DNA from: Deltaproteobacteria bacterium
Lineage (GTDB): Bacteria; Myxococcota; XYA12-FULL-58-9; JABJBS01
DNA length: 59,488 bases
Reading direction: 5' to 3'
Assembly: GCA_018668695.1 (NCBI GenBank)
Contig: JABJBS010000336.1
Coordinates: forward strand, 1-59,488
Part shown: positions 27,399 to 41,873 of the stretch, piece after piece
Layout: each line of letters starts with the position of its first letter
Position numbering within the stretch: position 1 is the first letter of the stretch
Made by a program: the position numbers and the translations under genes
Notes under the pieces: model-generated
The model's database searches: none
Told to the model about the DNA's origin: nothing
The model's input: the letters and a program-made list of their open reading frames with translations, nothing else

Positions 27399-30323
27399 AT
27401 GTCTAGCAGTAGCCTTATGAATGCAAGCAGAAGCTCCGAGACCGAAGCCTTTTACACCGATTTACGTGAAAGCCTTGGTCAATACCGAGTTTTGGCGGGA
27501 AGCAATCCACTTAGTAATCCAATCTCATTATTGGGGCTGGAGATATCTAAAAAGCTTACGACTGAGCAGACTTCCCTATCTGAGTTGAGCGCGGTTATTC
27601 AAAGTTCTTCCAGCGCAGCATTTCTGCGAAGGGCCACGAGACTTGGCGACTACCTTGGGGAGATGAGTATCCACCGCAATACAGCGCGGCTCGAGGAACT
27701 CTTCGGCGGCATTGCCAAAAAGTGCGAGAACTTTGAGGCATTTGAGAAAACGCTCAACCGCGAGTGGCTCGGCGTTGTCATGACCGCCCACCCAACTTTC
27801 GGACTTTCAGATAAGTTGTATGAAGCATTGGCAGGACTTGCGCTGGATAACGCCGAAGGCGGGTCTGAGCTTGATGAGGAAGACCGAAGCGCCCTCCAGG
27901 ATTTGGTTGCCAGTGAAGTTCATGCACCAGACGATCCTGTGAATCTAAGCAAGGAGCATACGCTTTCTCTTGAAGCCATTGGCAATTTACATTGGGCGCT
28001 TCGCCGCGTTTATGGAGTTGCGCTGGATGTGGCGAAGGAGCATTACCCACAAGAGTGGAACGGCCTTTCGCCGCGTTTGATGACCGTAGCAAGCTGGGTT
28101 GGTTATGACCTGGATGGCCGAAGCGACATCCTCTGGCATGACACATTTCGCGCACGTATGAAGGTCGAGCTTGAACAGCTTAGAGTTTACCTGAGTGAAC
28201 TCGCGTCGATTCGAAATATGTTCTCGACAGTTCTTGAAAACAGTCCTGCGGCCACGACAGCCCTTAAACAAATCGAAGAAAAATTAAGAGCGACGGAATA
28301 CGCGGTCGCTTCGGATATCGATGTTCTATCTCGTGATTGTAATGAGAATGAAGCAGTAGAGCACCTGGGCAAGCAATTGGCCCGCAGTCTTGATGTTCGG
28401 CTGACCGATACGTCTTTGTGTGTGGGGCTTCTTAGTGAAGCGATTGATAGTGCCACTGAAGATGACATGGTTCGGGCCTTGTGCATCTTACGCGCAGAGA
28501 TGGCAAACCATGGTTTGGGTATGGCCCACACCCACGTGCGCCTTAACTCTTCGCAGTTGCACAATGCTATTCGCGGTGTTTTGAAAATGGAAGGCTCGCC
28601 GGATGAGCCAGGTAACCGAAGACGCTATCTTAACGAGTTAAGTGCACTCTTTGATGATTTAGAGCCCGTATCGATTAATGTGGGCTCCATTATGGCTGAG
28701 AGAACCAGTGGTAAACGATTGTTTATGATCGTTGCTCAAATGATGCGTTACATCGACTCAACCCATCCTATTCGTTTTCTCATTGCAGAATGCGACACCG
28801 CATTTACAATCTTAACGGCATTGTACTTTGCTCGCCTCTTTGGTGTTGCGGAGCACGTTGATATCTCTCCTCTGTTTGAAACTGAAACCGCGCTCGAACG
28901 CGCAGACTCGGTGATAGAGAAGCTCTTAGATATTCCTCATTATAGAAAATACGTTGAGGAGCGCGGTCGCATCGCAATTCAGACTGGCTTCTCCGATGCA
29001 GGTCGTCACCTGGGCCAGCCGGCTGCCAGTATGGCCATCGAGCGATTGCGAATGAAGATGGCAAGAATGCTTTCACGCCACGGTTTAGACGGTATCGAAC
29101 TTTTAATTTTCGATACTCACGGTGAGTCGATCGGGCGAGGTTCACACCCAGTTAGTTTTTCAGACCGTTTAAATTATACTTCGCCGCAAAAGAGCAGAAA
29201 ACTCATTGAAGAAGCGGGTCTCCTCTTTAAGCAGGAGCTTAGTTTCCAGGGCGGAGATGGGTACCTCTTTTTCAAGAACGAGTCCTTGGCCTTTGCAACG
29301 CTGGCGCGGCTTCTTGAGAACACGCTGGACCCAGAAGAGTCGGATGCAAGTGACGCGTTTTACGATGACACAGACCATTCACTAGATTTCTTTATTACTG
29401 CAAAAGAGTTCAATGAAAACGTCATGGACAATCCCAGTTATGGGACCTTACTTGATGCTTTTGGAACCAACCTTTTGTATAAAACCGGGTCCAGAGTTTC
29501 GCGTCGACAGCATGATGGCGGTGTGAATCGCAGCAATCACCCATCGCAAATTAGAGCTATTCCGCACAATGCGACGCTGCAGCAGTTGGGATTTCTTGCC
29601 AACTCCATCGGTGGTTTGGGCGCAGCGATTTCCAACGATTTGGAACAATTTGTTTCGATGTATGAAAACTCCAGCCGTTGCCGCCGCTTTATGAGCTTGG
29701 TGAGTTACGCCCGAAGTTTAACGAACCCAGATGTTTTGGCGGCTTATATTAGCCTCTTTGATCCAGACCATTGGCTGGCACTGGCAGAGACCGAATCTGA
29801 TCCAACCCGTAAGCGCAGGATGAGACGAGTTGTGAGCCTCTTAGGTGGCGGTGAAACCTATGAAGGTCTTCGGCGCATTTTTAGAATTTTCCGAGAAGAT
29901 TTAATGGATCTCGATGCTGGCTTCGAAGCCATTGGCGGCCGACCGGTTGGGATCACTGAAACAGCTCGCGATGAACTGGATTTACTGCATGGTCTTCGCG
30001 TTGGCTTGATTCAAGAGTTCTTTCTCATGATTGTTCAGGTCCCCCGGTTTAGTTCACAGTCGTCAATGACCATCGGTGAAGTCATGCAAGAGCTTTTACG
30101 GCTTAGTGTATTACCGTCGATGAAAGTCTTAGGCGATGCCTTTCCTACAGATGGTCAACCGATTGAAAGCGGAGCCTATGGAGAGCAAGCCAGTTACGTG
30201 AGTGACGAGGCACAAGGGTACAAAGAAGTTCATCAAGAAATCTTCGAACCGATGACTGAAATGTATGATTTGATGCGCCGGGTGACCACTGCGGTCACCC
30301 ATGTTGTTGGCGCGTTTGGCTAA
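27399..30323 (+). CDS. ppc: Divergent phosphoenolpyruvate carboxylase
   Basis: The 974-residue protein matches PEP carboxylase along its length but with changed signature motifs. It has TAHPTF at 129-134 (canonical TAHPTE, His131 kept), VGYDLDGR at 234-241 (canonical GGDRDGN) and HGESIGRG at 574-581 (canonical HGRGGSxGRG). SQIRAIPHN (Arg719) replaces LRAIPW. The catalytic His and the second Arg of the loop are present, but the first loop Arg is lost with a two-residue deletion. It would carboxylate PEP to oxaloacetate if active. GAGGATTGAAATCACG precedes the ATG. A hairpin sits on its stop codon. Activity is inferred, so the symbol is tentative. Confidence 0.8.
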   Translation: MSSSSLMNASRSSETEAFYTDLRESLGQYRVLAGSNPLSNPISLLGLEISKKLTTEQTSLSELSAVIQSSSSAAFLRRATRLGDYLGEMSIHRNTARLEELFGGIAKKCENFEAFEKTLNREWLGVVMTAHPTFGLSDKLYEALAGLALDNAEGGSELDEEDRSALQDLVASEVHAPDDPVNLSKEHTLSLEAIGNLHWALRRVYGVALDVAKEHYPQEWNGLSPRLMTVASWVGYDLDGRSDILWHDTFRARMKVELEQLRVYLSELASIRNMFSTVLENSPAATTALKQIEEKLRATEYAVASDIDVLSRDCNENEAVEHLGKQLARSLDVRLTDTSLCVGLLSEAIDSATEDDMVRALCILRAEMANHGLGMAHTHVRLNSSQLHNAIRGVLKMEGSPDEPGNRRRYLNELSALFDDLEPVSINVGSIMAERTSGKRLFMIVAQMMRYIDSTHPIRFLIAECDTAFTILTALYFARLFGVAEHVDISPLFETETALERADSVIEKLLDIPHYRKYVEERGRIAIQTGFSDAGRHLGQPAASMAIERLRMKMARMLSRHGLDGIELLIFDTHGESIGRGSHPVSFSDRLNYTSPQKSRKLIEEAGLLFKQELSFQGGDGYLFFKNESLAFATLARLLENTLDPEESDASDAFYDDTDHSLDFFITAKEFNENVMDNPSYGTLLDAFGTNLLYKTGSRVSRRQHDGGVNRSNHPSQIRAIPHNATLQQLGFLANSIGGLGAAISNDLEQFVSMYENSSRCRRFMSLVSYARSLTNPDVLAAYISLFDPDHWLALAETESDPTRKRRMRRVVSLLGGGETYEGLRRIFRIFREDLMDLDAGFEAIGGRPVGITETARDELDLLHGLRVGLIQEFFLMIVQVPRFSSQSSMTIGEVMQELLRLSVLPSMKVLGDAFPTDGQPIESGAYGEQASYVSDEAQGYKEVHQEIFEPMTEMYDLMRRVTTAVTHVVGAFG

Positions 30324-31056: not shown

Positions 31057-32232
31057 TTAGTCCAACTTGAGAGTACTGCTTAACTCTCTTGTCATGTTTT
31101 TGTGGTGCGCTTCATTGGTACCGCCGCCGATTTCAAGCAGCTTGGCGTCTCTCCAGAGGCGTTCAACGGTATATTCACCGACGTAGCCATATCCGCCCAA
31201 AACTTGAATGGCTCTGTCCGCGACGTTTTTAGCCATCGTTGCGGCGTAGAGTTTAACGCCATCAGAGTCGAGTCGGTTACCAGACGAATCAAGCTTCAGG
31301 TTGGCTGCCGTGCTGTAAACGTAGGCTTTGCCAGCCATGTACTCCGCATAGGATTCTGCAATGTGTCGCTGAATCTGACCAAAGTGTCGCAGCGGCTTAC
31401 CAAATGCATGTCTCTCATTGGCGTAACGATTCATGATCTCAATGCTTCGTCTTGCAATCCCAAGGCTCATGGCTGCGAGCGTGAGTCGCTCGAGCTCAAG
31501 GTTACGCATCATGTGCTTCACAGCTTCACCTTCGCTGCCTACAAGATTTTCTGCAGGAATACGGCAGTCCTCGAATACGAGCTCTGCAGTGGTCGAAGCA
31601 CGCATGCCTAATTTGTCATGGATCTTTTGTCCGAGGCTAAAACCGGGTGTGCCTTTTTCAACGAGGAAAAGTGAAGCGCTTTTACTCGACTCACCGGTTT
31701 TGGCGTATACGAGAAAAATGTCACCGAGTTCGGTATTGCTGATGGCACCGTTGGTGATCCACATTTTGGCACCATTGATTACGTAGCTATCGCCATCTTT
31801 TTTAGCAGAAGTTTGCATTCCGAGAACATCGGTCCCGACCGCTGGTTCGCTCATGCACATGCCGCCGATAAGTTCTCCCGTGGATGCTCCAGGTAAATAC
31901 TTCTGACACTGCGCCTTGTTGCCGTTGTGTGCGAGGTTGTTGGCAAACAACATAGAGTGAGCAAGGTAAGCCAGGGTAAAACCAGGATCTACCGCTGAGA
32001 GTTCCTCGTGCACAATCACAGCCGCGGCTGCATCCATGCCTGATCCACCAAACTCTTCTTGAACGGTGATGCCCAAAAGCCCGAGGCTTCCGAGTTGGCG
32101 AAAGAGCGCAATGTTAAAAGTTTCAGTGCGGTCGTTTTCTGCGGCCTGTGGCTCCACTTCGCGCTCGGCAAATTGACGAACCATTTCACGAAGGGCCTTA
32201 TGCTCAGGCGTTGGGTTATAGATGTTTTCCAT
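31057..32232 (-). CDS. Acyl-CoA dehydrogenase, probable isovaleryl-CoA dehydrogenase
   Basis: This 391-residue FAD enzyme has the ACAD layout, with the flavin/substrate motif MCMSEPAVGTD near 125-135 and a C-terminal LLEIGGGTNEAHH. The usual catalytic Glu position at the C-terminus is Gly, whereas Glu248 in NLELERLTLA aligns with the catalytic Glu254 of isovaleryl-CoA dehydrogenase. That makes oxidation of isovaleryl-CoA to 3-methylcrotonyl-CoA the most likely reaction, the step before the MCC operon 4 kb away. GAGG precedes the ATG. The AHHKNMTREL end departs from the usual R-R/Q-R pattern, so another branched acyl-CoA substrate is possible. Confidence 0.82.
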   Translation of the reverse strand: MENIYNPTPEHKALREMVRQFAEREVEPQAAENDRTETFNIALFRQLGSLGLLGITVQEEFGGSGMDAAAAVIVHEELSAVDPGFTLAYLAHSMLFANNLAHNGNKAQCQKYLPGASTGELIGGMCMSEPAVGTDVLGMQTSAKKDGDSYVINGAKMWITNGAISNTELGDIFLVYAKTGESSKSASLFLVEKGTPGFSLGQKIHDKLGMRASTTAELVFEDCRIPAENLVGSEGEAVKHMMRNLELERLTLAAMSLGIARRSIEIMNRYANERHAFGKPLRHFGQIQRHIAESYAEYMAGKAYVYSTAANLKLDSSGNRLDSDGVKLYAATMAKNVADRAIQVLGGYGYVGEYTVERLWRDAKLLEIGGGTNEAHHKNMTRELSSTLKLD

Positions 32233-32402: not shown

Positions 32403-35402
32403 TCAGGGTTGCTCTTTACGCCACTTTCGTAGGGTTTGCTCTGTGGTGTTCATCATGGAGGCTGCGATTTTCGTCTTGTTACCCAGCCGATCTAACACTT
32501 CTGCTAAAAGTGACCCCTTCCAACCTTCGAGTAAGTTGTCGGCGGTTTGCTCATTGGCTTCAACAAGTTTCTGAAGAACTTGGCTGCGAGATGCCCAGAT
32601 TTCCCGCCGGCCAACATCTTTACTCCCGTGGTTAATTTCCCCGAGCCGCCGACGGTATGTGGACTCAGGAACACCGAGGAGTTTGGCCGCCCTTCGGGTG
32701 ACGCTGCCGGGTTCACGTTTCGATATGTCTGATGAAATGGTCTGGGCGGCTTCTACAAATGAAAGCGTGAGCCAGAGAGCAACCGGAGGAGGCATGGAAG
32801 GAAGCGAGTCAATGCAAGCGGTGACATCTCGGCTGAGCCAGTGTCGCAGCTGCATCGCAGGAGCGATGCCTGAATCGCTCTCTACTGTCTGCGGCGGTTG
32901 AGGTGATTGCTCAGCGGTTGCGGCTTGGGTGATCTGCCGGTTTTCAACCGGTATTGCAGGACTGAGTGGAATGTCGAGTTCTTGAAGCTGCAGTTCGTTT
33001 TCAGTACACAAAATCACAGCCCGCATTACTTTGTTTTGTAGTTCACGGATATTGCCCGGCCAGTTGTAGGAAAGCATGGCAAGCTCTGCTTCATCGCTTA
33101 GCCCATCGATGCGCTTTTGGTATTGAAGGCTGAACTGCTCAATGTAGTAGCGCGTGAGCAATGCGATTTCTTCTCTGCGATCTCGTAGTGGCGGAATCGC
33201 AAATGTTACGACGTTGAGCCGGTAATACAGATCTTGGCGAAATTTACCGCTGGAAACTTCGCGCTCTAAGTCGCGGTTGGTGGCAGCGATGATTCTTACA
33301 TCTACTTGTTGATAGCGGGTGGCACCGACAGGCGAGATGCGGTGGTCTTGAACAAAAGTCAGGAGTCTACCTTGGACCTCAAGTGGCAATTCGCCGATCT
33401 CATCGATGAAAACTGTGCCGCCATTGGCTTCAGCAATACGCCCCATACTAGAGCTTTCAGCGCCCGTATAAGCACCTCGAACGTGGCCGAAGAGTTCATT
33501 CTCAATCAAGTTTGGCGAGATGCTACTGCAGTCAACGGTTACAAAGGGACGGTCGTGGCGGTTGCTTAAGTTGTGAATGGTTTGGGCCAAGATGCCTTTA
33601 CCGGTTCCACTTTCACCGGTGATAAGAATAGTCGCTTCGGTGGTGGCTACCCGCCGAGCGGAGGAGAGTAGCTCCTCCATGGCTGGGCTGTTGTATACGA
33701 GTTTTACTTTGCCAAAAGCTTTTCGAAGTGTATCAAATTCGTCGCGCAATTTTTTGCGCCGCTCTTCTTGGTTACGCTGTTCTTGTTTTGCCAGCAGTGC
33801 TCTATCAAGAGCCATCGCCAGCTGAGTTGAGAGGCCCTGTAAAAATAAGACATCTGTTACATCAAGCCAATGACCCTCGCCGGTATGGGACATGTAGATA
33901 CAGCCGTGGCATTTATCGTCTGCGAGCATGGGAATCGCGATGGCTCTGAACTCAAGGTTGGTTTGAGTATCGTCGATACCTTCTACGCCGCAGCCTAAGA
34001 TCGCTTGAGCCTCGACTGCTCTGTCTACCAATTTAGCTTCTCCAGGAAGGACTTCGTTGGCATTATCGTAATGGCCTTTGGCTATCATTTCAGGGCTGAC
34101 CATACGTTGTATCAGTTTGAGACTTTCGTCTTCCTCTTTACGAAAAATGTAGAGGCTGTGGGCTCGAAAAGTGTGTCGAAGGCTGTCGGCTGAATTACCA
34201 ATGATACTTTCAGGCTCTTGATTGGCGGCGATTGTACGAACGGTATCCCACATCAAAGACATGCGTCTGTAGTCCCGGGTCATATCACCTGTGAGAACGC
34301 TGGTGAGTGGATCGATGGCCTTGGTGCTAACAAGCTGCCCGGGATGCCAAAGTTCAACTTGGTTCATGGAGAGCCGAGCTTTGCCGAGTGCTTGAGCCGC
34401 TTGTTGAATCATCAGTTCGGGTTGTCGCGGATTTTTCGCATTGTACACACTCATGCCGCAGTGAAGCTGAAGGTTCACTTCAACCAGTTCATTCACGCGC
34501 GCTTCAGTTTGTTCAACCAGTCGACTCGCTACAATTAAGGCATTGCTCTCTCCGGTATCCGGAAGAAGAACTGCAAAGACTGCACCGCCAAACCGTGCCA
34601 TGAAATCGGTGCTTCTCAGATTGCCTCGTAAAACATGGGCCATTTTATTGAGAAGGTCATCGGCAACTTCTTGGCCCAGAGCATCATTGATCCGGCCATA
34701 GTCTGTTGGGTTGAGCATCAAGAGTGAGAGGGGAGGCCCGCCAATATTGGCTTCGCGAATAAGTTCGGCCGTCATTTGGTGCAGCTCACTGAGACCAGGG
34801 AGTCCCGTTAGAGAGTCATGCAAAACAGAGCGTACCCGGCTTATGTGCCGGCCCATGGCCCCGCCAAGTGAGAAGAGCCAGTGTAGAGTGAGTTCTTTGG
34901 ACGTGGGCTGCTGGGAGCCCTCAATAAACTGGTCGAGCTTTTCTTGTGAATCGAAGGTCAGTCCAAACCAAGCAGGTGGTTTGATTTGGGTCAGATTGAC
35001 TTGGCGGTGGTCACTGCTACGGCGTTGCCATTTCGTGGCGGGAGGAATGGTGTTGGGATCAAGTTCCGGAAGCCCAAGCGGGCTCTGGCCAAGTAGGAGA
35101 GGAAAAATGAGACCAAATTTTTCATGGCTTCTCACAGGCATGTGTGCGGAGCCAAGCCATCCTTGTAGTCCAGGAGCGATGTCGAGTTGGTCGAAATCTC
35201 CGGTATCAAGCCGGTCTAGATAGGAATAGGCAGTGTCTAACGAATGCAGCTCGGGCAAAGGCTGACCCTCACCGGCGTGCACAAGCAATGTATGACTGCG
35301 AGATGAAGAGGGCGAGGGAACGAAGAGTGTGGCATGCGTGGCTGCTGTTGAGTCTTGAACGCCGTGCAGAAAAAAGCGCAACACATCGTGCGAATGGTCC
35401 AT
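32403..35402 (-). CDS. Sigma-54-dependent activator with degenerate GGDEF and GAF domains
   Basis: The 999-residue protein has several parts. The N-terminus (~1-180) is uncharacterised. A GGDEF-type domain (~195-350) has its active motif degraded to GGAVF (272-276), so cyclase activity is unlikely. A GAF-like domain (~385-535) follows, then an AAA+ activator with Walker A GESGTGKG (596-603), GAYTGA (643-648, the sigma-54-contact loop, canonical GAFTGA) and Walker B VFIDEIGEL (664-672). The C-terminus holds two helix-turn-helix-like segments at ~901-921 and ~965-996. It would activate RpoN promoters after sensing a ligand through GAF, or c-di-GMP or GTP through the degenerate GGDEF. The target genes are unknown. 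Confidence 0.85.
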   Translation of the reverse strand: MDHSHDVLRFFLHGVQDSTAATHATLFVPSPSSSRSHTLLVHAGEGQPLPELHSLDTAYSYLDRLDTGDFDQLDIAPGLQGWLGSAHMPVRSHEKFGLIFPLLLGQSPLGLPELDPNTIPPATKWQRRSSDHRQVNLTQIKPPAWFGLTFDSQEKLDQFIEGSQQPTSKELTLHWLFSLGGAMGRHISRVRSVLHDSLTGLPGLSELHQMTAELIREANIGGPPLSLLMLNPTDYGRINDALGQEVADDLLNKMAHVLRGNLRSTDFMARFGGAVFAVLLPDTGESNALIVASRLVEQTEARVNELVEVNLQLHCGMSVYNAKNPRQPELMIQQAAQALGKARLSMNQVELWHPGQLVSTKAIDPLTSVLTGDMTRDYRRMSLMWDTVRTIAANQEPESIIGNSADSLRHTFRAHSLYIFRKEEDESLKLIQRMVSPEMIAKGHYDNANEVLPGEAKLVDRAVEAQAILGCGVEGIDDTQTNLEFRAIAIPMLADDKCHGCIYMSHTGEGHWLDVTDVLFLQGLSTQLAMALDRALLAKQEQRNQEERRKKLRDEFDTLRKAFGKVKLVYNSPAMEELLSSARRVATTEATILITGESGTGKGILAQTIHNLSNRHDRPFVTVDCSSISPNLIENELFGHVRGAYTGAESSSMGRIAEANGGTVFIDEIGELPLEVQGRLLTFVQDHRISPVGATRYQQVDVRIIAATNRDLEREVSSGKFRQDLYYRLNVVTFAIPPLRDRREEIALLTRYYIEQFSLQYQKRIDGLSDEAELAMLSYNWPGNIRELQNKVMRAVILCTENELQLQELDIPLSPAIPVENRQITQAATAEQSPQPPQTVESDSGIAPAMQLRHWLSRDVTACIDSLPSMPPPVALWLTLSFVEAAQTISSDISKREPGSVTRRAAKLLGVPESTYRRRLGEINHGSKDVGRREIWASRSQVLQKLVEANEQTADNLLEGWKGSLLAEVLDRLGNKTKIAASMMNTTEQTLRKWRKEQP

Positions 35403-36812: not shown

Positions 36813-38420
36813 ATGGACAGTCTAAATACACAAATTCAGAAAAGTTCTCCCGATTTTGCCGCCAACCAGGCGCACCACCATGCTCTTGCGGATACTCTCC
36901 GTGAGCGGCTGGAAAAGGTGTCCCAAGGCGGTTCAGAGCGGGCCCGTGAAACCCAAAAAAAACGTGGCAAGCTTTTGCCCCGTGAACGCATCGACAAGCT
37001 ATTGGATGCAGGCACACCGTTTTTAGAACTCTCTGCCATGGCAGCCTTTGGTCAACATGACGATAAGGTACCTGCTGGCGGAATCATTACAGGTGTGGGG
37101 CGCGTATGCGGCCGCGAATGTATGATTGTTGCCAACGACTCCACGGTAAAGGGTGGAACCTATTTCCCCGAGACGGTTAAGAAGCACGTTCGTGCCCAAG
37201 AAATCGCCCTCGAAAATAGGCTTCCCTGTATTTACCTCGTGGATTCTGGTGGTGCGTTTTTGCCTCTCCAGGCAGAAGTCTTCCCCGACAAGGAACACTT
37301 TGGGCGTATCTTCTACAACCAGGCGACCATGAGCGCAGCCGGCATCCCGCAAATTGCGGTTGTGCTTGGCATGTGTACAGCGGGCGGTGCTTACGTTCCG
37401 GCGATGGCAGATGAGAATATCATCGTCAAAGGCAACGGTACGATTTACCTTGCAGGCCCTCCTTTGGTGAAGGCGGCCACTGGTGAAGAAGTCAGTCCCG
37501 AAGACTTGGGTGGGGGCTCCATGCACTCACAGGTTTCAGGCGTCACGGATCACTTAGCAGCCGACGAAGAAGAGGCACTGCATATTTGCCGAAACATCGT
37601 TGAAAACCTTGGGACCATGAAAGAAGTGGACCTGGACATCAAAGAGCCAGAAGAGCCTCTCTACAGTCCTGATGAAATCTCTGGTGTTTTACCAGCGGAT
37701 TCAAAAGTGCCATTCGATGTTCATGAAATTATCGCACGTTTGGTTGATGGTTCGCGTTTCCACGAATTCAAAGCCTCTTATGGTTCAAGCCTCGTTTGCG
37801 GCTTTGCCCGTTGGATGGGCTACCCAGTAGGTATCGTAGCCAACAATGGTGTGCTCTTCAGTGAGTCAGCCATGAAGGGTGCTCACTTCGTTCAGATGTG
37901 CAACCAGCGTAAAATCCCACTTCTCTTCTTGCAAAACATCACCGGATTCATGGTGGGTAAGCGTTATGAAGAAGGCGGAATTGCAAAGCATGGAGCCAAG
38001 ATGGTCCAGGCGGTTGCCACTGCGACAGTGCCTAAAATCACGCTGGTTATCGGAGCCTCTCATGGTGCCGGAACCTACGCGATGTGTGGCCGCGGCTATC
38101 TGCCTCGCTTCATGTTCTTGTGGCCTAATGCGCGGGTTTCCGTGATGGGCGCGGAGCAAGCAGCGAGCGTTCTGGTTCAGGTTAAGAAGGACCAAATGGA
38201 GCGTCATGGCGAAACCATGACCGCTGAACAAGAGGAAGCCATTCGAAAGCCAGTACTTGAAAAATACGAGCGTGAGGGAGACCCCTACTATGGTAGCTCA
38301 CGGCTTTGGGACGACGGTATTATTTTACCCAGTGAAACTCGGGAAGTAATCGGTATGGCGCTATCTGCCACACTGAATGCTCCAGTGAAGCGCGGCGACA
38401 CACCCGTATTCAGGATGTAG
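36813..38420 (+). CDS. liuB: Methylcrotonyl-CoA carboxylase, carboxyltransferase (beta) subunit
   Basis: The 535-residue carboxyltransferase has the exact usual length of MCC beta and its marker [16 protein letters not shown]. The N- and C-terminal crotonase-like halves include [12 protein letters not shown] and [14 protein letters not shown] for acyl-CoA and carboxybiotin. It transfers CO2 from biotin to 3-methylcrotonyl-CoA to make 3-methylglutaconyl-CoA. The start at the internal ATG matches family length, while the longer frame would start at GTG. The hydratase gene starts three bases after its stop. Confidence 0.93.
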
Positions 38421-38423
38421 ACG

Positions 38424-39194
38424 ATGGAAACTCTCAATGTTTCACAGACGGGGCGCGTGGCCACGGTCACCCTAGACCGGCCAGATGTGCGTAATGCATT
38501 TAACGACCAAGTGGTTGTAGAACTTACGCAGGTCTTTCGTGAGATGGACGAAAGCGTTCAAGTGGTCGTCTTAGAGGGCGTGGGTAAAAGTTTTTGTGCG
38601 GGCGCTGACCTCAATTGGATGAAGAAAAGCGCAACATATACCCAGGAACAAAATGCCGATGATGCCCGTGCGATGCTCGGGCTTTTCGATGCGATTGATA
38701 GCTTCGCCGGTGTGGTCATTGGACGCGTCCATGGCGCAGCGCTTGGCGGCGGTGTGGGGCTTGTTGCATGTTGCGACATCGTTGTAGCAACCGAACGGGC
38801 CAAGTTTGGACTGACTGAAGTTCGACTGGGAATCGTACCGGCGGTGATCTCACCGTTTGTTGTTGCTAAAATCGGCGTGAATCACGCTCGGCGTTATTTT
38901 GTGACCGGCGAAATTTTTGATGCCCAGACGGCTTGCCGTATTGGCTTGGTGAGTGAAGTCGTTGCCGACGATGAAGCTTTGGACCTGAAAATCGGTGAAC
39001 TGACACAATCGGTAACAGGCAATGGTCCAATCGCAGTGAAAGAATCGAAAAAACTAATTACAGAAGTGACAACCCGGCCTCGTGAGGATGCTCTGGAGTA
39101 TGCTGTGCAGACCATTGCACGGCTGCGAGTATCGAAAGAGGGGCAAGAGGGTTTGTCCGCATTTCTTGAGAAGAGAAAGCCAGGTTGGCGATGA
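38424..39194 (+). CDS. liuC: Methylglutaconyl-CoA hydratase (crotonase family)
   Basis: The 256-residue crotonase has the oxyanion-hole segment SFCAGADLNWM, whose DLNWM ending is typical of methylglutaconyl-CoA hydratases. It also has HGAALGGGVGLVACCD and TEVRLGIVPA with the catalytic Glu. It hydrates 3-methylglutaconyl-CoA to HMG-CoA. It lies between the MCC beta and MCC alpha genes. Its stop overlaps the next start as ATGA, so all steps from methylcrotonyl-CoA are coupled. Confidence 0.9.
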   Translation: METLNVSQTGRVATVTLDRPDVRNAFNDQVVVELTQVFREMDESVQVVVLEGVGKSFCAGADLNWMKKSATYTQEQNADDARAMLGLFDAIDSFAGVVIGRVHGAALGGGVGLVACCDIVVATERAKFGLTEVRLGIVPAVISPFVVAKIGVNHARRYFVTGEIFDAQTACRIGLVSEVVADDEALDLKIGELTQSVTGNGPIAVKESKKLITEVTTRPREDALEYAVQTIARLRVSKEGQEGLSAFLEKRKPGWR

Positions 39195-40639
39195 AAGTAT
39201 TGGTAGCAAATCGCGGCGAAATCGCTTGCCGTGTTCTACGTACGCTTCGAGAGCGCTCTATCGATTCAGTGTCGATTTACAGTGAAGTTGATGCGGGTAA
39301 CCCACATGTATGGCTGGCGGATGAGTCTGTGTGTATTGGTGAGCCACGTGCATATCTCGATATTGAAAAAGTCATTGAAGCAGCGAAGCAAACTTCGGCA
39401 ACGGCTATCCACCCAGGTTATGGGTTTCTAGCAGAGAACGCCGACTTTGTAGCAGCCTGCGAAGCAGCCGGGATTGTGTTCATTGGCCCAAGCGTTGAAG
39501 CGATGCATGCATTCGCCGATAAGCGCGCAGCGCGCGTGTTGGCGATGAAGCACGATGTGCCAGTTATCGATGGAGCAGAGGTTTGCGATTCACCTGAAGT
39601 TGCCAAAGAGCTTGCCGAAAAAGTAGGTTATCCAGTTCTTCTCAAAGCGTCGGCAGGTGGTGGCGGTAAAGGGATGCGTAAAGTCTTTGGACCTGACGAA
39701 GTTGCTGATGCGTACGAGTCAGCGAGCCGTGAAGGCGAAGCAGCGTTTGGAGATGGCCGCTTACTTTTAGAGAAGTACATCCACCCTGCGCGGCACATTG
39801 AGATTCAAATTCTTGGTGATGGTAAAAATGCGATGGTTGTAGGTGAGAGAGAGTGCAGCTTACAGCGACGTTATCAAAAAGTACTCGAAGAGGCGCCGGC
39901 TACGTTTATCTCCGACGAAACCCGTAAGGGTTTAGCTGAGAGTGCCATTCGTCTGGCTGAAGCTGTGGGTTATTCAGGCGCGGGAACCGTGGAGTTTCTG
40001 GTGGGCCCTGATGGCCGTCATTATTTTCTCGAAGTCAACACACGACTCCAAGTAGAGCATCCCGTGAGCGAGATGATTTCCGGCATCGATTTGGTCGCTG
40101 CGCAAATTGAGATCGCGCATGGCGGAGCATTGCCCGAAACGCCGATGTTACGTGGTCACTCGATTGAAGCCAGGCTGAATGCTGAAGATGCCTACGGTGG
40201 TTATCTTCCGCAATCTGGCGATATCTTGATGTTGGACTGGCCTCAGTGGCCACATGTACGTATCGATTCTGGTATTGTTGAGGGTGGTGAGATTTCTCCA
40301 CACTACGACTCGATGATTGCCAAGGTGATTGTTTGGGGAGAGACCCGAGAGGTCGCTCGAACACGTTTGTTAGCGGCTCTTAAAGAAACAACGCTTCTCG
40401 GTGTGACCACGAATCAGAGCTTTTTGATTGATCTACTTGAGGCTCCGTTTTTTGTCAGCGGAGAAACTTATACGTCAACAGTTGAATCTGAAACGTGGAC
40501 GGCTCCAGAGCTACCTGAGTTTGTGAAGATGGCAGCTGAAAATGCAGCGTCTGCGCCGACGTCGGGCCCGGTTGGTCATTCTAAGACAGATCGGCACAGC
40601 CCTTGGGCCAGCATTGGGAAGTTTAGGATGGGACAATGA
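39191..40639 (+). CDS. liuD: Methylcrotonyl-CoA carboxylase biotin-carboxylase subunit (MCC alpha, N-terminal part)
   Basis: The 482-residue protein is a biotin carboxylase. NRGEIACRV is at 7-15, IHPGYGFLAEN follows, and the ATP-grasp glycine loop is SAGGGGKGMR at 154-163. EVNTRLQVEHPV and EARLNAED complete the family motifs. It lacks the biotin domain of normal MCC alpha. Its last residues (DRHSPWASIGKFRMGQ) correspond to the beginning of the BT domain that links BC and BCCP in fused MCC alpha. It stops at TGA overlapping the next ATG (ATGA). The start is the ATG overlapping the hydratase stop. The gene therefore looks like the 5' half of a split MCC alpha gene. Confidence 0.92.
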   Translation: MKVLVANRGEIACRVLRTLRERSIDSVSIYSEVDAGNPHVWLADESVCIGEPRAYLDIEKVIEAAKQTSATAIHPGYGFLAENADFVAACEAAGIVFIGPSVEAMHAFADKRAARVLAMKHDVPVIDGAEVCDSPEVAKELAEKVGYPVLLKASAGGGGKGMRKVFGPDEVADAYESASREGEAAFGDGRLLLEKYIHPARHIEIQILGDGKNAMVVGERECSLQRRYQKVLEEAPATFISDETRKGLAESAIRLAEAVGYSGAGTVEFLVGPDGRHYFLEVNTRLQVEHPVSEMISGIDLVAAQIEIAHGGALPETPMLRGHSIEARLNAEDAYGGYLPQSGDILMLDWPQWPHVRIDSGIVEGGEISPHYDSMIAKVIVWGETREVARTRLLAALKETTLLGVTTNQSFLIDLLEAPFFVSGETYTSTVESETWTAPELPEFVKMAAENAASAPTSGPVGHSKTDRHSPWASIGKFRMGQ

Positions 40640-41001
40640 GTTTTGTTTTTGTTGAACATGAAGGACGAAAAGTTCGTGTTGCCATAAAGAAGACTGCCAA
40701 AGGAACTTGGGTCGGTTGGCCCGGTGGGTCTGCTTTTCTTGAAGAAGAACGTGCATTCGCCAAAGGCCAGCAAAAAGACGAGGGTATCCGTGCACCGATG
40801 ACTGGGAAGGTTATCGAGGTAAAGGTTGCCGCCGGGGACGAGGTCGAAGAGGGCCAAGTTGTTGTTGTTCTCGAGGCGATGAAGATGGAGTACCGTTTGG
40901 CCGCGCCCAAGGCAGGCCAAGTTGAGACTGTCGATTGTGCTGTAGACCAGCTGGTAGATCTTGGTCAGGTCCTTGTCAGTTTGGGAGAAACCGAAGAATG
41001 A
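40636..41001 (+). CDS. Biotin carboxyl carrier part of methylcrotonyl-CoA carboxylase (split MCC alpha, C-terminal part)
   Basis: The 121-residue protein ends in a biotinyl domain with the biotinylation site EAMKM (Lys83) and the upstream RAPMTGKV segment. Its first ~45 residues (MSFVFVEHEGRKVRV, TAKGTWVGW) look like the remaining strands of the MCC BT barrel rather than a normal free-standing BCCP leader. It continues exactly where the preceding biotin-carboxylase gene stops, in a shifted frame with an ATGA overlap. It should carry CO2 between the BC subunit and MCC beta. Its stop overlaps the HMG-CoA lyase start, again as ATGA. Confidence 0.88.
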   Translation: MSFVFVEHEGRKVRVAIKKTAKGTWVGWPGGSAFLEEERAFAKGQQKDEGIRAPMTGKVIEVKVAAGDEVEEGQVVVVLEAMKMEYRLAAPKAGQVETVDCAVDQLVDLGQVLVSLGETEE

Positions 41002-41873
41002 TTCGCATTGTAGAAGTTGGACCGAGAGATGGGTTGCAGAATGAACCTAATTTCGTCCCAACAGAGGCAAAGATATCGTTTGTAGATGCCCTAAGTGAAA
41101 CTGGGGCTCGTGATATCGAGGTCACCGCATTCGTTTCTCCTAAATGGGTTCCCCAGTTAGAAGATGCGACACAAGTCATGCAAGGGATTAAGCAGAAGGA
41201 CGGCGTAGCCTATTCTGTATTGGTCCCGAATATGCGTGGTTTCGACAGAGCCATGGAAGCAGGCGTACAAAAAATTGCGATTTTTACGGCGGCCAGTGAA
41301 GGCTTCAATAGCAAGAATATCAATACGAGTATCGACGGCTCATTTAAGAGATTAGCCCCAGTCGTACGCGCGGCCCAAGATGCGGGCATCGCTTACCGAG
41401 GCTATGTTTCAACAGCTTTCTGGTGCCCCTATGAGGGTAAAATTTCTCCCGAAAAGGCTGCGGATGTGATCGAACGTTTGGCCGACCAAGGGGTCACTGA
41501 CGTGTCTATTGGAGATACCATTGGGAAGGCAAAGCCTGATGAAGTGCGTGCTCTTTTGGACGTAGTCTTAAAGAGAGTCGAAGCAGACCGGTTGGCGATG
41601 CACTACCATGATACGTTTGGACGCGCTTCAGACAACGTTTTGGCTTCATGGGATTACGGCATCAATATATACGATGCTTGTACCGGTGGTATCGGTGGGT
41701 GCCCTTATGCGCCGGGTGCTTCTGGTAATGTCGCCACATCAACTGTTGTAAAAACCCTTCGAGCAGCGGGAGCGGATGTTCCGCTGGACTTGGATGCGAT
41801 TGAACGAGCGAAAGATAAAATCATTCGCCACCTCGGGGGCCAAAGGCAGCCACAAGACGCCGAGGATATTTAG
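40998..41873 (+). CDS. Hydroxymethylglutaryl-CoA lyase
   Basis: The 291-residue TIM-barrel enzyme cleaves HMG-CoA to acetoacetate and acetyl-CoA, ending leucine degradation. The N-terminal GPRDGLQNE (8-16) and HYHDTFGRA give metal ligands, and GGIGGCPYAPGASGNVATS holds the catalytic Cys loop. ATG at 40998 overlaps the stop of the biotin-carrier gene and lacks the non-homologous extension of the longer frame. The EVE gene starts one base after its stop. It corresponds to liuE/mvaB in other bacteria. Confidence 0.94.
   Translation: MIRIVEVGPRDGLQNEPNFVPTEAKISFVDALSETGARDIEVTAFVSPKWVPQLEDATQVMQGIKQKDGVAYSVLVPNMRGFDRAMEAGVQKIAIFTAASEGFNSKNINTSIDGSFKRLAPVVRAAQDAGIAYRGYVSTAFWCPYEGKISPEKAADVIERLADQGVTDVSIGDTIGKAKPDEVRALLDVVLKRVEADRLAMHYHDTFGRASDNVLASWDYGINIYDACTGGIGGCPYAPGASGNVATSTVVKTLRAAGADVPLDLDAIERAKDKIIRHLGGQRQPQDAEDI

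Follow-up and report, generated by a model that had tools for sequence, protein, structure and literature searches.

A putative three-gene methylcrotonyl-CoA carboxylase with a separate biotin carrier and a shortened BT barrel

In the alpha6beta6 methylcrotonyl-CoA carboxylase (MCC) the alpha subunit is a single 655-residue chain that includes a complete BT domain. In the DNA analyzed here, a stretch of 59,488 nucleotides which we call the window, its parts are instead found on two chains with about four BT strands. The preliminary description of this DNA had reported two open reading frames of 482 and 121 amino acids meeting at an ATGA, and we find them exactly as described. Is this an intact gene broken by a sequencing error, a programmed frameshift site or a true gene fission, and what has become of the BT domain that normally joins the parts of the enzyme, among them the biotin carboxylase (BC) and the biotinyl domain (BCCP)?

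According to Pfam searches and gene order the two genes belong to a leucine-degradation (liu) operon with the order liuB-liuC-BC-carrier-liuE (Table 1). Adjacent BC and BCCP genes are thus accompanied by one carboxyltransferase (CT) gene, and the same order is found in the window's order and in a Gemmatimonadetes metagenome-assembled genome (MAG MGR_bin187, JACCXV010000113.1; locus L035). The alpha6beta6 MCC, represented by Pseudomonas aeruginosa LiuD/LiuB (3u9s) and human MCCC1/MCCC2, is the best sequence match for BC, carrier and CT, and it shares with the window the liu operon and the hook motif SPW. The BC chain matches P. aeruginosa MCC-alpha (3u9s_A) over residues 10-493 (E=2.6e-132) and consists of the Pfam domains Biotin_carb_N, CPSase_L_D2 and Biotin_carb_C followed by the BT helix region and then the hook. 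The best PDB match of the carrier is the same chain, residues 552-653 when the single sequence is used and residues 530-653 with a profile; the biotin lysine is K83 of its EAMKM motif (codon 40882-40884). The liuB product has human MCC beta as its best PDB match (E=4.4e-230), followed by P. aeruginosa MCC beta (1.2e-224), whereas the match to geranyl-CoA carboxylase beta is weaker (6.5e-145). Judged from these best-matching structures, the CT of the window is assigned to the MCC beta type. Its reading frame opens at a GTG (36795), but the ATG at 36813 is the likely start. The liuC product is probably a methylglutaconyl-CoA hydratase. Scans for promoters and terminators gave nothing exceeding shuffled sequence. 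Apart from the liu operon and on the opposite strand lies a gene for an acyl-CoA dehydrogenase, possibly isovaleryl-CoA dehydrogenase (31057-32232, minus strand).

Table 1. Features of the liu operon and of the BC/carrier junction in the window
Feature	Position	Strand	Basis
liuB, MCC beta (carboxyltransferase)	36813..38420	+	Pfam Carboxyl_trans, E=3.8e-157
liuC-type enoyl-CoA hydratase	38424..39194	+	Pfam ECH_1; equivalent position in relatives
BC chain of split MCC alpha, 482 aa	39191..40639	+	Pfam; 3u9s_A match
Hook motif SPWASIGKFRMGQ at the end of the BC chain	40598..40636	+	HSPW alignment with P. aeruginosa MCC-alpha
Shine-Dalgarno-like AGGA, 7 bases 5′ of the carrier ATG, within hook codons	40625..40628	+	sequence, inference
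ATGA, carrier start overlapping BC stop (4 bases)	40636..40639	+	sequence; relatives
Carrier chain, 121 aa, half BT barrel and biotinyl domain	40636..41001	+	Pfam Biotin_lipoyl; AlphaFold2
Remaining BT strands, carrier residues 2-36	40639..40743	+	profile alignments; model
Biotinyl (BCCP) domain	40786..40986	+	Pfam Biotin_lipoyl, carrier residues 51-116
liuE, hydroxymethylglutaryl-CoA lyase	40998..41873	+	Pfam HMGL-like; ATGA overlap with carrier

The end of the BC chain (DRHSPWASIGKFRMGQ) and the N-terminus of the carrier (MSFVFVEHEGRKVRV) were both confirmed in the sequence. Overlaps of the ATGA type also occur at the liuC-BC and carrier-liuE junctions, and with three such junctions the one between BC and carrier is nothing out of the ordinary for this operon. 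An equivalent split with the identical four-base overlap is present in three further genomes of the window's order (G001, G002 and G005; BC identity 52-58%), in a genome of another order (G013) and in L035.

These observations bear directly on the possibility, considered in the preliminary description, that an indel near a T-rich run has broken an intact MCC alpha gene. The assembly is a draft of 424 contigs and the loss of a base would indeed give an ATGA join of this appearance. The T-rich run, however, sits 3′ of the BC stop and an indel within it would therefore be unable to join the frames; beyond its TGA the BC frame holds no BT continuation. Moreover, the carrier frame contains a TAG at 40624-40626, upstream of the carrier ATG, so that the frames could only be joined by an indel within about 10-13 bases, and the joined frames would still give a BT barrel that is short of about 35 residues. 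With four other independently assembled genomes and one MAG having the same split and overlap, we consider a sequencing or assembly error next to impossible. The programmed frameshift site that had also been suggested, which would yield a fused protein of about 600 residues in addition to the two chains, is scarcely less remote. The BC and carrier frames do overlap by four bases and a relative, G003, encodes a fused protein of 596 amino acids; but the five junctions of the clade and of the other order differ from one another at every base around the ATGA and hence lack a shared slippery site, the carrier of the window has its own start with the AGGA upstream, and two of the three ATGA junctions of the operon lie between unrelated enzymes. 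Because the relatives carry the equivalent split with the identical overlap, we regard frameshift and indel as excluded in practice. The third suggestion, a true gene fission, is supported by the four-base overlap, the AGGA and the matching splits.

The BT domain of MCC and GCC is composed of a helix, a long loop termed the hook, which contacts the beta subunit, and a barrel of eight strands (seven in P. aeruginosa MCC) (PMC4673880). The BC chain of the window terminates with HSPWASIGKFRMGQ. The HSPW of this chain is aligned to the HSPW of P. aeruginosa MCC-alpha, which places the cut after the hook (SPW..FRMG). The motif SPW/EPF..(F/W)R is retained in split as well as fused relatives, and among the split relatives aligned barrel strands are never found on the BC gene. 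By this alignment the BC chain keeps the BT helix and the hook, and every barrel strand is assigned to the carrier. We also considered a cut midway through the barrel with strands on both chains and rejected it, because in the alignment all split relatives are cut behind the hook and have every strand on the carrier. The earlier proposal of a split inside the BT domain is therefore correct insofar as the cut lies within this domain, but it does not pass through the barrel. Nor do the two proteins read as one interrupted barrel, since about 30-50 barrel residues are absent, and a barrel assembled from two chains is not what we find: all strands are on the carrier and the first barrel half is missing. 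It is plausible that the BT domain as a whole is shared by two chains, helix and hook being on one and the strands on the other.

Both the sequences and a structural model show a shortened BT barrel in the clade of the window, in which the first half, about half of the strands, is lost. Among the loci in which the motif was found, the distance from the hook to AMKM amounts to 89-93 residues in four split genomes of the clade (the window, with 90, and G001, G002 and G005) and to 110-157 residues in 36 further loci, both fused and split. The first 40 residues of a profile built from the four carriers align without gaps from column 60 of the fused MCC-alpha C-terminus onward, and the carrier as a whole covers columns 60-185, the first barrel half being absent. 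A carrier profile of 60 sequences aligns to P. aeruginosa MCC-alpha only from residue 530 onward while the BC alignment stops at residue 493, thus the barrel has lost its first strands and retained its last. Aligned alone, the half barrel gives a weak match (E=0.016 in a single comparison), and it is the neighbouring biotinyl domain that fixes its register firmly. The Pfam family BT_MCC_alpha (PF21139) gave no match on the BC or carrier chain of the window, even at E 10; it is found on fused MCC-alpha (profile positions 2-115) and on the L035 carrier (33-114 of 118).

An AlphaFold2 model of the carrier based on 60 sequences has a mean pLDDT of 91.4, with 92-95 for residues 1-30 (a first run with four sequences gave a mean of 58.8). 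The chain starts with a four-stranded meander (E2-8, E11-19, E23-28 and E31-36) followed by the biotinyl domain. These strands correspond to the second barrel half of the MCC BT domain, MCC and GCC having 7-8 strands. The alignment behind this model had been cut back to the part that is homologous to the second barrel half, so that the model confirms the four strands but is by itself silent on what was lost. A Foldseek search of the PDB returned MCC, PCC and pyruvate carboxylase with their BT-BCCP regions (115-138 columns), but the domain orientation raises the rmsd to 7-16 Å and the result adds little. Conserved within the clade are the hook, E7, G10, R14, G23, W25, V26 and EAMKMEYRL, with EAMKM being invariant.

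How widespread is such a split? Our collection of loci comprises 44 split and 57 fused cases, duplicates counted. Besides several families of the window's phylum, Gemmatimonadetes (L035), Anaerolineales (L069) and Poseidoniales (L037, L056 and L085) also have split pairs, and looser versions occur in other families of the phylum, in Chloroflexota and in Poseidoniales; in the window's own genome (G000) another split pair lies on contig C358. For the archaeal ACC-PCC the BC has been described as an independent subunit (PMC3199775). With this precedent and the split pairs elsewhere, the separation of BC and BCCP genes is a known arrangement. In these split acyl-CoA carboxylases (the archaeal ACC/PCC and paralogues within the phylum such as that on C358) a BC gene precedes a BT-BCCP or BCCP gene, often with a four-base overlap as in the window. 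Their carriers, however, have about 150-207 residues with a full-length BT region, and most belong to other BC clades. The closest counterpart is L035, where the sister BC, the operon, the cut at the hook and the ATGA are all as in the window; its carrier has 207 residues and nearly the whole barrel, compared with 121 residues and half a barrel. In the literature searched we found no description of a split MCC, which does not prove that none exists. A carrier-profile search of genome contigs returned, besides L035, mostly fused carboxylases and distant BCCPs and no member named as the window's order, and 150 genomes of the Gemmatimonadetes phylum contained no second close relative of L035.

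The history of the split was approached with a tree of the BC sequences, in which the window, G001, G002, G003 and G005 form a clade (support 100/99) with L035 as its sister (100/99). The fused alpha gene of G003 therein is peculiar. Its linker contains two in-frame copies of GGGGCGGTTCGTGAACYGCCC, a REP-like palindrome, and other sequence takes the place of the hook motif and the first strands. This palindrome has 73+72 matches in G003 with one mismatch allowed (about 145 copies) and zero copies in G000, G001, G002 and G005. Within the fused MCC alpha gene the palindromes lie at the place where the other genomes are split (L007:2779-3090; L152 = G003:C48:17424-17486). In an AU test a sister position of G003 to the four split genomes was not rejected (p=0.49), and a placement of G003 outside the clade together with L035 was rejected (p=0.006). 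The simplest reading is an old split, after which the clade lost the barrel half and the two genes were later joined in G003, whose fusion is probably a secondary re-fusion by repeat insertion. Two independent splits would need equally few changes, and the AU test does not fix the place of G003 within the clade; the direction of fission and fusion is therefore inferred.

Taken together, the locus very likely encodes a three-gene MCC, composed of the liuB CT, a BC chain with helix and hook, and a separate carrier with a minimal BT domain. In such an enzyme the BC chain would carboxylate the biotin borne by the 121-residue carrier, and the biotinyl domain would swing from the BC site to the CT site supplied by liuB. 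The hook is expected to dock the BC chain onto MCC beta. The carrier would very probably bind the complex through its four-stranded half-BT sheet, which may rest against the BC helix. The ATGA overlap, with the AGGA 7 bases upstream, probably couples carrier translation to that of BC, and coupling would give both chains in equal amounts. Coupling, assembly and activity of the split enzyme are here deduced from homology.

Two other readings of the locus accept the split and differ in what the proteins do. In one of them the half barrel pairs with that of another carrier, or of several, into a full eight-stranded BT barrel between protomers, and the four strands left out of about eight would fit this. 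In BC1 of Chloroflexus aurantiacus (596 aa; PDB 8hz4) four beta hairpins from four chains interlock as an eight-stranded barrel (PMC11077971). Like the alpha subunit of the window, this protein has a total of about 600 residues and a short hairpin region replacing the full BT domain, and by profile this region (8hz4_E residues 10-127) aligns with the N-terminus of the carrier. Yet BC1 differs in being encoded without an MCC operon, its hairpin has no high similarity to BT domains (PMC11077971), and pairing would link alpha units in a manner not seen in the alpha6beta6 MCC and GCC. Given the BC1 hairpins a multi-chain barrel is conceivable, but it is unsupported and in our estimate unlikely; it would amount to a holoenzyme architecture unlike the known alpha6beta6 MCC. 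The other reading takes the locus for a decaying MCC whose CT is served by an intact alpha subunit of 659 amino acids encoded on contig C415 of the same genome. This gene is a fused BC-BT-BCCP beside acyl-CoA dehydrogenase and enoyl-CoA hydratase genes and gives a weak BT_MCC_alpha match (27.3 bits, below the cut-off of 31); with it in the genome the partners of the window's CT are not strictly proven. However, both chains of the window retain their catalytic domains, biotin site, hook and intact frames, about 50% identity is kept over several families and the operon is complete and conserved. The C415 protein falls into another BC clade of the tree and other CT genes exist for it, so that we consider decay very unlikely and retain the three-gene MCC. 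The C415 alpha gene (L147, G000:C415, 2444-4441, minus strand), with two acyl-CoA dehydrogenases and an enoyl-CoA hydratase next to it, forms a second carboxylase cluster of this genome.

The split alone is common and of little weight; the half barrel is the point of interest. The BT domain is said to hold BC and carboxyltransferase together in MCC, GCC and PCC (PMC4673880), and an MCC with a separate carrier and half of the BT strands would show how little of this domain may suffice, making the enzyme of the window a small test system for carboxylase assembly. The relatives provide a natural series with split and full barrel (L035), split and half barrel (window, G001, G002 and G005) and a rejoined form (G003).

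Two further genes of the window attracted our attention. A divergent PEPC-like protein of 974 residues (27399-30323, plus strand) matches the PEPcase profile partially (98-622 of 919, E=2.2e-22); TAHPTF is present and the remainder of the profile is absent. A regulator of 999 residues (32403-35402, minus strand) has GGDEF, GAF and sigma-54 activation domains on a single polypeptide, which is an unusual combination.
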